The notes below the pieces were generated by a model that saw nothing but the letters and a program-made list of their open reading frames with translations, had not been told where the DNA came from and did no database searches. Below, piece by piece: positions 11,551 to 38,669 of a stretch of DNA of 64,000 nucleotides. The first letter of the stretch is position 1. The number at the start of each line of letters is the position of its first letter. Origin of the DNA: an uncultured bacterium (GTDB lineage: Bacteria > Cyanobacteriota > Vampirovibrionia > Gastranaerophilales > Gastranaerophilaceae). The translations under genes and the position numbers were made by a program. Location of the stretch: positions 558,001 to 622,000 of the forward strand of contig CASERN010000011.1 of the NCBI GenBank assembly GCA_949290355.1, given 5' to 3'.

Positions 11551-12353
11551 TTAAAGTTTATAAGGATAATCTTTCTTAAATTCAAAATTGTCATATTGCA
11601 AGAGTGCAGAGCATCTACTATTATTATTTTTACAAGCTTCTAATGCTTTTTCTCTTGTTGTATAATAAGGTAAGTATGCTGCTCCAAATGATTTATTTTT
11701 ATAAAGTTCTCTTTCCCATTGATTAGATTTTTGAGTTGGAATAAAGAACAAAAACTGATCCCGACCCATTTCATTTGGATTTTTGTCTCCATTAATATCT
11801 ATAATTGTATCCATACAATTACCCAAACTTAGTTCAACAGTAGAACCGTCTTCAAAATATACCTTTGTATTTTTGCTGTTTGCCTCATCGTCAGAGTTGT
11901 AAACACCTTTTTCTATTTTTACAAATTTTATATATTTTGCAAGATAATGGTTCCAATACTCATATGAAGCATCATAGTTCTTTTGTTTTTCATCTGTATC
12001 ATAATCAGCACCAGGACTCCATTCAAATGCTGGTGTCCCCTGCTCATTTTCAGCAAATAATATCGCTTGTTGCATACTGCTAGTGAATTTTTTTAATCTT
12101 GCAGTTGCTTCACTTCTTTTGTGGTTTTGTATTAATGTTGGTATTGTAAGAGCTGCAACAACTCCTATAATTCCAAGTGTAATTAAGACTTCTGCTAAAG
12201 TAAAAGCTTTTCGGCGAGTATTTGTGATTTTGCTATATTTATCAGTACACTTGTAAAGTGATTGTTGTAAAAAGTTAAACTCATCTCTGTAAAGCTTAGC
12301 GTAATCTATCTTTTCGGGGGGGGGGCGACCTCAAAAGCTTTTGTTCTTCTCAT
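11551..12353 (-). CDS. Type IV pilin-like protein with phase-variable G10 tract (OFF as assembled)
   Basis: AAGGAG lies 7 bases before the ATG at 12353, which opens MRRTKAFEVAPP and then hits ten C on the coding strand. As written the frame ends at TAG just after the tract. With 11 (or 8) C it continues for 267 residues: a leader of about 50 residues, then RRKA|FTLAEVLITLGIIGV, the prepilin cleavage region and first helix of type IV pilins and pseudopilins. The globular part contains DINGDKNPNEMGRDQFLFFI, and the protein ends DYPYKL. Without the frame change the first in-frame ATG lies after the membrane helix, at 12075. AAAAGCTTTT flanks the leader insert on both sides, so MRRTKAFTLAEV may be the ancestral start. 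Confidence 0.8.
12202..12342 (-). repeat. Leader insert bounded by direct repeats AAAAGCTTTT
   Basis: The 10-base sequence AAAAGCTTTT occurs at 12202-12211 and 12333-12342. Both copies encode Lys-Ala-Phe in a row after basic residues in the ON frame. Removing one copy and the 121 bases between would leave a normal short prepilin leader MRRTKA joined to FTLAEV. Insertion or slippage between these repeats is an inference. Confidence 0.5.
12316..12325. repeat. Homopolymer G10, candidate phase switch of pilin 1
   Basis: Ten consecutive G on the + strand (C on the coding strand) in an AT-rich genome, inside the start of the pilin gene. Distance from ATG 12353 to the in-frame codon at 12075 is 278 bases; adding one base gives 279, a multiple of three. 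Confidence 0.85.
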
Positions 12354-37896: not shown

Positions 37897-37935
37897 TATG
37901 TTATAATTCAATATAATAAGAAAGGAGCAAGATTT

Positions 37936-38669
37936 ATGGAAAGATTTAATGTATTGCAGAATTTCGGGGGGGGGGCAGTTTAAAGCTCACACCGCAAGGG
38001 TTTCGAGGATTCTTTAAATATTTCGTGTCGAGTCAAGCGGCACGCTTGGGGTTTACATTAGCAGAGGTATTAATTACTCTAGGGATTATCGGAGTTGTTG
38101 CAGCATTAACAATACCTACACTTATTTATAATCATCAAAAACAAGTTTCAGAGACAGCAGTAAAAAAATTCTATACCAATATAAATCAAGCTGTTTTATT
38201 AGCAGAAACAAATTTAGGTATTGAACGTGCGACCTGGGATACTAGCGGAACTAGTTTATATGACAATTATTTAAAGAATTATTTAAAAGTTATGTCTGTT
38301 AAATATGATAATTCTTCATCAAGACCTGGTGTTATGTTATATTTTGCTGATGGAAGCTTAGTTTATGTCGTTTCTTGTGATTTATTATTCTGTACAAATG
38401 AAAAAAGTTATAATAAATATAAATCTGATGCTGTTCAAACTGGAAATTGTATGTTGTTTGGAATGTATCCGAATGGAGGTTTTTCACAAGATTGTATAAA
38501 TGAAAATTATTATAGAAAAGGCGTTGTTCCATATTTAAATGGCTCTGCAAGCTATTGTTCTTATGTTGAAAATCATGATTTCGCAGCAATGTGTGAGCGG
38601 CAATTATATGCAAAAGTATTAGAACAAAACGGTTGGCGTTATCCAAAAAATTGTCATGTAAGATTCTAA
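37936..38669 (+). CDS. Type IV pilin-like protein with phase-variable G10 tract (OFF as assembled)
   Basis: AAAGGAGC lies 8 bases before ATG 37936, which opens MERFNVLQNF and enters ten G. As written the frame stops at TAA (37981-37983). With 11 (or 8) G it continues SLKLTPQGFRGFF..ARLG|FTLAEVLITLGIIGVVAALT, giving a 244-residue prepilin with a leader of about 39 residues and a canonical Gly before the Phe. The globular part has four or more Cys residues and ends GWRYPKNCHVRF. A GTG at 38025 could open the pilin frame but has no ribosome site. The leader DNA is richer in G+C than its surroundings. It lies after dgkA with a TATAAT box at about 37900. Confidence 0.8.
37966..37975 (+). repeat. 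Homopolymer G10, candidate phase switch of pilin 2
   Basis: Ten G between TTTC and CAG, inside the leader of the second pilin gene. The distance from ATG 37936 to the in-frame codon at 38025 is 89 bases; one more base makes 90. The flanks TTTC-G10-C match those of the tract at 12316. Confidence 0.85.

Follow-up and report, generated by a model that had tools for sequence, protein, structure and literature searches.

Poly-G tracts in the leaders of type IV pilin-like genes of Gastranaerophilales: a probable phase-variation system with its guanines on the leading replication strand

Two pilin-like genes in the window

The Gastranaerophilales (Melainabacteria) are uncultured, non-photosynthetic relatives of the cyanobacteria that are found in animal guts. 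The stretch of DNA considered here (‘the window’, 64,000 nucleotides in all) is drawn from a Candidatus Gastranaerophilales genome (1.85 Mb in 14 contigs; labelled G000), and carries, adjoining ybeY, dgkA and ribF, a plus-strand gene whose first codons run into a homopolymer. Upstream lie an extended -10 promoter-like sequence (TGTTATAAT, positions 37899 to 37907, plus strand), which is a candidate promoter by its match to the consensus only, and a Shine-Dalgarno-like AAGGAG (37922 to 37927, plus strand), of a kind that precedes the ATG in nearly all members of the family described below. From the ATG at 37936 the frame enters a tract of ten G’s (37966 to 37975, plus strand), flanked by TTTC on its 5' side and by C on its 3' side, and at that length it encodes only MERFNVLQNFGGGAV before a TAA is reached (frame 37936 to 37983, plus strand; stop codon 37981 to 37983). 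With eleven G’s the same start yields a 39-residue leader (MERFNVLQNFGGGGSLKLTPQGFRGFFKYFVSSQAARLG) that continues into FTLAEVLITLGIIGVV and stops at 38669; the part of the leader that follows the tract (37976 to 38051, plus strand) is open only in the frame of 11 (or 8) G’s. Both points had been made in a preliminary description of this DNA and both stand, the first (AAGGAG, ATG, ten G’s, TAA) on rereading of the sequence, and the second (one extra G opening the 39-residue leader into ARLG and then FTLAEVLITLGIIGVV) on translation at a length of 11.

The mature portion (38052 to 38669, plus strand; 205 amino acids) scores 38.8 bits against the Pfam family DUF6613, above the cut-off, and 20.0 bits against N_methyl, just below the cut-off of 21.2. 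The junction between ARLG and FTLAEVLITLGIIGVV has the attributes required of a prepilin cleavage site (cleavage after G or A, then F-T-L-x-E leading into a hydrophobic helix). Judged from its sequence, the product is a type IV pilin-like (prepilin) protein; there are no filament data. Its orthologue in genome G020, likewise beside ribF, has an unrelated leader and has kept both the G10 tract and the +1 offset.

A second gene of this kind occupies positions 11551 to 12353 on the minus strand, with its ATG at 12353, a leader beginning MRRTKAFEVAPPPEK, a run of ten C’s and a mature FTLAEV sequence from approximately 12204. Read on the plus strand, its tract is again G10 (12316 to 12325), and at that length its frame is again off by +1. 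The earlier observation that one gene has G and the other C on its coding strand, with both tracts ten long and both genes +1 out of frame, is correct at each locus. The accompanying statement that the two loci are unrelated outside the pilin helix survives for the leader proteins only, as a DNA motif is common to both leaders when they are compared on the G strand: TTTC-G10-C[RR]YYY..A[AG]GCT. Overlapping G8 matches number six in the window against 0.08 expected from shuffles, and the GC skew across it is +0.08. In both genes the guanines of the tract are on the leading strand.

The tract family in the source genome and its relatives

The source genome contains 37 G-runs of at least nine bases, 35 of them within the leaders of pilin frames. 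In the 36th, at position 13 of contig 4, the leader sequence is that of the family but is truncated by the end of the contig, and the 37th (contig 14) is unrelated; the 36 of the family sit shortly past the start codon. Two further pilins have tracts of eight bases, both in frame. A pilin search of the genome returned 55 hits, including a few weak ones, and a prepilin peptidase is present (PF01478, G000:C11:510233-510625). The preliminary description had proposed a multi-locus contingency system for pilins or pseudopilins, together with a search for G/C runs of eight or more upstream of frames of the FTLAEVLITLG type; that search was strongly positive (36 of the 37 runs of at least nine, and dozens more per relative), and the proposal gains support from this genome and its relatives alike, with the switching itself not observed. 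Enrichment of tracts at genes for surface or secreted functions is also met, given the 36 pilin-type leaders among 37 runs; other tracts fall in acyltransferase and glycosyltransferase genes.

Several features of individual members deserve mention. Two genes (L032 and L033, at G000:C11:423877 and 449706) have the start of the leader and the start of the pilin in common and differ in the middle leader segments, a pattern that suggests putative mosaic exchange within the pilin family. Four contigs of the assembly end at or near pilin leaders (C2:70344, C4:13, C11:1030365 and C13:21968); contigs thus apparently break at pilin-leader repeats, and pilin counts may be underestimates. An internal ATG with a promoter-like box 3' of the tract is found in some members (for example, MKKIFG directly before FTLAEV), and these might therefore be expressed whatever the tract length and escape its control. 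In many leaders (e.g. L083 and L123), a promoter-like box of the form TTGnnn/TGTTATAAT is itself encoded in frame (ICYNSDM..HH) just 5' of the pilin start, which could give some tract genes an additional promoter and start.

Two relatives contributed roughly 120 additional tracts, and tract-rich members of the genus that were examined hold about 36 to 75 per genome; nearly all of the tracts follow a C. Those of the relatives searched cluster in the window’s own genus. A scan of approximately 85,000 species with a tract-specific pattern returned 67 stretches, two of which bear the names of other bacteria (one deltaproteobacterium and one Rhodobacterales MAG); the others are named as Gastranaerophilales or Melainabacteria, or come from MAGs named only as uncultured bacteria or from scaffolds of ‘Fusobacterium sp. 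CAG:439’, the last two being names that do not state the lineage or may misstate it. All of the genomes are draft assemblies, mostly MAGs. The TTTC that precedes both window tracts proved too narrow to serve as a fixed signature: an unbiased search of genome G007 for G9 found about 77 runs, only seven of them preceded by TTTC, and the near-constant feature there is the C before the run. In genome G006 (e.g. L344, L348, L356 and L360), G-runs are preceded by A or T and lie on mixed strands, breaking the C-preceded, strand-coherent pattern; some of them may be artefacts. Repertoire size and tract use appear uncoupled, since genome G029 has 94 pilin hits, with short leaders and no G-run in the five inspected, and genome G024, with 92 hits, is rich in tracts.

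Spread by viruses finds no support, as the only viral contig match (IMGVR_UViG_3300031112_000359, positions 430-480) has an unrelated context: its G9 lies in an apparent inverted repeat (CAGGTAAAT...ATTTACCTG) within a methyltransferase-like gene, and may be either an artefact of sequencing or a switch unrelated to the family. Loss of mismatch repair was likewise excluded as a cause, MutS having been found in 31 of the 32 genomes of the genus.

Outside the pilins, the tract occurs within acyltransferase, glycosyltransferase-like and ferredoxin-domain genes in three relatives, where a length of 10 is in frame. Orthologues of the ferredoxin-domain gene differ in phase (ten G’s in frame in G032, eleven out of frame in G015 and ten out of frame in G002). 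Orthologues of the acyltransferase in G011 and G024 have no run, are of the same length and align without gaps, so the tract there was not inserted as an element, and a mobile insertion element is ruled out for that gene. Full-motif tracts also lie outside pilin genes at G026:C1:190471 and 209368, one of them 5' of a small ORF of unassigned function, where it is possibly a promoter or 5'UTR switch.

Tract length, reading frame and replication strand

In a set of 106 tracts from eight species (those of relatives having been collected with a TTTC-G8 pattern), the length is 10 in 91 cases, 11 in nine, nine in four and eight in two; a length of 13 has also been called elsewhere. Most pilin tracts are out of frame by +1, and would be ON at 11 or 8, as the tracts of eight and most of those of 11 in this set are. 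Among 58 non-redundant leaders, the ON length equals 2 modulo 3 in 52 (p = 6e-19 against an expectation of 1/3), and this rule is seen in C-coding leaders and, whichever of the three codon phases is used, in G-coding ones. The ON frame is free of stops in all 58, with none in 1,565 codons, where the two alternative frames have 133 and 189 stops; this contrast is partly built in, in that the selection of loci required an open frame between tract and pilin. Peptides at OFF lengths are mostly 14-18 codons. A pair of pilins 89% alike in DNA is predicted to be ON in G024 and OFF in G025. Such differences in length and phase were seen between species and between paralogues; no strains of one species were compared.

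These loci satisfy the sequence criterion of a simple-sequence-repeat contingency locus (a homopolymer of at least eight, in or near a coding region, whose length sets the frame), and the best reading, to which a probability of roughly 80% is assigned, is that the G10 is a poly-G phase-variation tract in a type IV pilin-like leader, one of many such tracts, which switches by slippage and is OFF by default. The family size, the frames, the length of 10, the strand rule described below and the shared flanks are direct observations; the switching, the default-OFF expression and slippage during replication as the cause of the strand rule are inferences. On this reading, slipped-strand errors in replication would add or remove G’s. 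At 10, apparently the stable length, the pilin would be one base out of frame and translation would end after about 15 codons; at 11 or 8, the frame would be restored and an N-terminally extended prepilin made, which prepilin peptidase would cut before FTLAEV. Each cell would accordingly make only a small part of its large pilin repertoire, a part that would vary, and the choice of frame would fix the default, OFF for pilins and ON for enzymes. The phase differences between orthologues and the enzymes that are ON at 10 fit predicted length-dependent switching with a default state set by the frame. In Campylobacter jejuni, insertion is reported to be favoured at G8-9 and deletion at G10-11 (cited in PMC4085013), and such biases would hold tracts near 10. 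Against this reading, the uniformity of length 10 exceeds what might be expected of a freely drifting tract, the differences in phase lie only between paralogues and species (no read-level or within-species variation in length was seen), and MutS is present in nearly all of the genomes, as noted above. The members with an internal start, which might escape tract control, and the conserved flanks, which findings in C. jejuni (below) leave without an explanation, also count against it.

The same uniformity of length and +1 offset, which extends across species, unrelated leaders and both G- and C-coding genes, is what would be produced if the DNA were unchanging and the RNA polymerase or ribosome slipped on a fixed G10 or C10, giving a low, constant level of pilin; a -1 ribosomal slip or one inserted base would suit length 10 and +1 in either type of gene. 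Such programmed frameshifting nevertheless remains an unlikely account. Lengths of 8, 9, 11 and 13 do occur in the DNA, with those of 8 and most of 11 in frame, a length of 10 keeps the tract-bearing enzyme genes in frame, orthologues differ in phase, the several codon phases in use fit poorly with a fixed ribosomal slippery site, and the placement of the G’s with respect to replication would be left without explanation.

That placement follows a simple rule: irrespective of gene orientation, the G-run is found on the leading strand, a link that the preliminary description had not drawn. Each contig has one G strand for runs of the family, except those that cross an apparent origin or terminus, and of 59 pairs of neighbouring pilin tracts, 56 agree in G strand and only 36 in gene direction. 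In G007, 74 C-preceded tracts of at least nine G’s on four main contigs undergo two changes of strand in 70 neighbouring pairs, and in G025 there are 48 such tracts with two changes in 44 pairs; none of 20,000 label shuffles was as strand-coherent as either genome. The changes of G strand coincide with flips of GC and AT skew in G000, G025 and G007 (skew was sampled in 20-kb stretches, not over whole chromosomes). Shorter runs in the sampled sequence are only mildly biased between strands (348/267 for four G’s, 48/43 for five and 7/3 for six), and those of nine or more are divided 26/0. The rule has been established for these three genomes, with coherence along contigs as support in other relatives, and it is not established for the genus as a whole.

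In both gene orientations the G strand carries the same motif: (T)TTC, the G-run, C, a pyrimidine-rich stretch, and AGCT some 8-12 bases on. The leaders of leading-strand genes are glycine-rich (GGGG), and those of lagging-strand genes proline-rich (PPPEK-type); because the G-run is kept on the leading strand, the type of leader follows the replication strand of its gene. Transcription does not explain the rule, since G-coding and C-coding genes are transcribed in opposite directions relative to the run; replication is the direction that they have in common. It may be inferred that the required switching behaviour depends on the direction of replication, which might act through the rate, the length equilibrium or a dedicated factor. 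In this connection, a review (PMC10710837) describes substitutions caused by guanine tracts as more frequent when the tracts are on the leading strand; no paper stating a rule of this kind for poly-G phase-variation tracts was found in the open-access literature.

Polar motifs such as KOPS and Chi are oriented along the leading strand, are scattered genome-wide and are independent of gene family. The element described here resembles them in its strict polarity, and differs in being almost confined to pilin leaders. Were it a polar element of this type (KOPS-, Chi- or G4-like), read by a replication or recombination protein (for example, in pilin gene conversion) with its effect on the frame secondary, then its polarity, the single DNA motif common to both gene orientations and to several non-pilin sites, and the mosaic appearance of some pilin genes (L032 and L033) would be accounted for. 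Its near-confinement to the 5' ends of pilin genes, in place of a genome-wide scatter, and the strong conservation of the open ON frame make this explanation highly improbable; moreover, relative to the G-run the pilin body is on the 3' side in G-coding genes and on the 5' side in C-coding genes, so that a one-sided recombination signal would act inconsistently.

Weakest of all, and barely credible, is the proposal of an assembly or sequencing artefact, in which a uniform 11 is collapsed to 10 by short reads and the genes are simply ON: homopolymers are error-prone and the genomes are all drafts, but a length of 11 would break the genes that are in frame at 10 (those for the acyltransferase, the glycosyltransferase and the ferredoxin-domain protein, together with a few pilins), lengths of 8, 9, 11 and 13 are called elsewhere, and the same rule appears in assemblies named as from several groups.

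Comparison with known systems and significance

The closest parallels to the proposed phase-variation system are found in other bacteria. Strain NCTC11168 of C. jejuni has 29 poly-G/C tracts of seven or more (PMC4965091), and the species lacks mismatch repair (PMC4235727). The likeness lies in genome-wide G/C homopolymers of 8-11 within the frames of surface genes, with ON and OFF states predicted by length; the differences are that a single pilin family is involved here, with one dominant length, a default-OFF state, conserved C flanks, G’s always on the leading strand and MutS present. Flanking sequence was reported to be without effect on slippage in C. jejuni (PMC4965091), and the conserved flanks here are therefore unexplained. 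In Neisseria, 79 putative phase-variable loci include 50 with homopolymers (poly-C in 21 and poly-G in 18, as read along the gene; PMC4085013); these too lie within genes and switch surface functions through poly-G or poly-C, but they belong to mixed gene classes with reported lengths of 7-19, and no replication-strand rule for them was found in the literature searched. The pilE system of Neisseria combines a G-quartet with gene conversion from silent partial copies (PMC4235727), and resembles the present family in having a G-rich element beside a pilin gene and a large, related pilin repertoire. Its hallmarks, silent partial cassettes and one expression locus, are not seen here, where every member is a complete gene that has a Shine-Dalgarno sequence and ATG of its own, a full-length frame and an in-frame homopolymer.

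A more specific proposal, which is speculative and on present evidence doubtful, would have the polar C-G10-C...AGCT motif read by a trans-acting factor, or by a property of the replisome, only when the G’s are on the leading strand (the template of the lagging strand), thereby setting the length of 10 and a controlled rate of pilin switching; the genome would then pick glycine- or proline-rich leaders according to the direction of replication.

No report of phase variation in Gastranaerophilales or Melainabacteria was found in the open-access literature, and, as far as that literature shows, the system described here would, if real, be the first in these organisms. It would comprise an unusually large repertoire drawn from one family, whose default OFF state would be inherent in the reading frame. 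A constraint of replication strand on contingency tracts is apparently undescribed, and coherence of strand on the scale seen in G007, with both changes at skew flips, makes a long-standing question directly testable: whether the direction of replication sets the mutability or the stability of phase-variation tracts.
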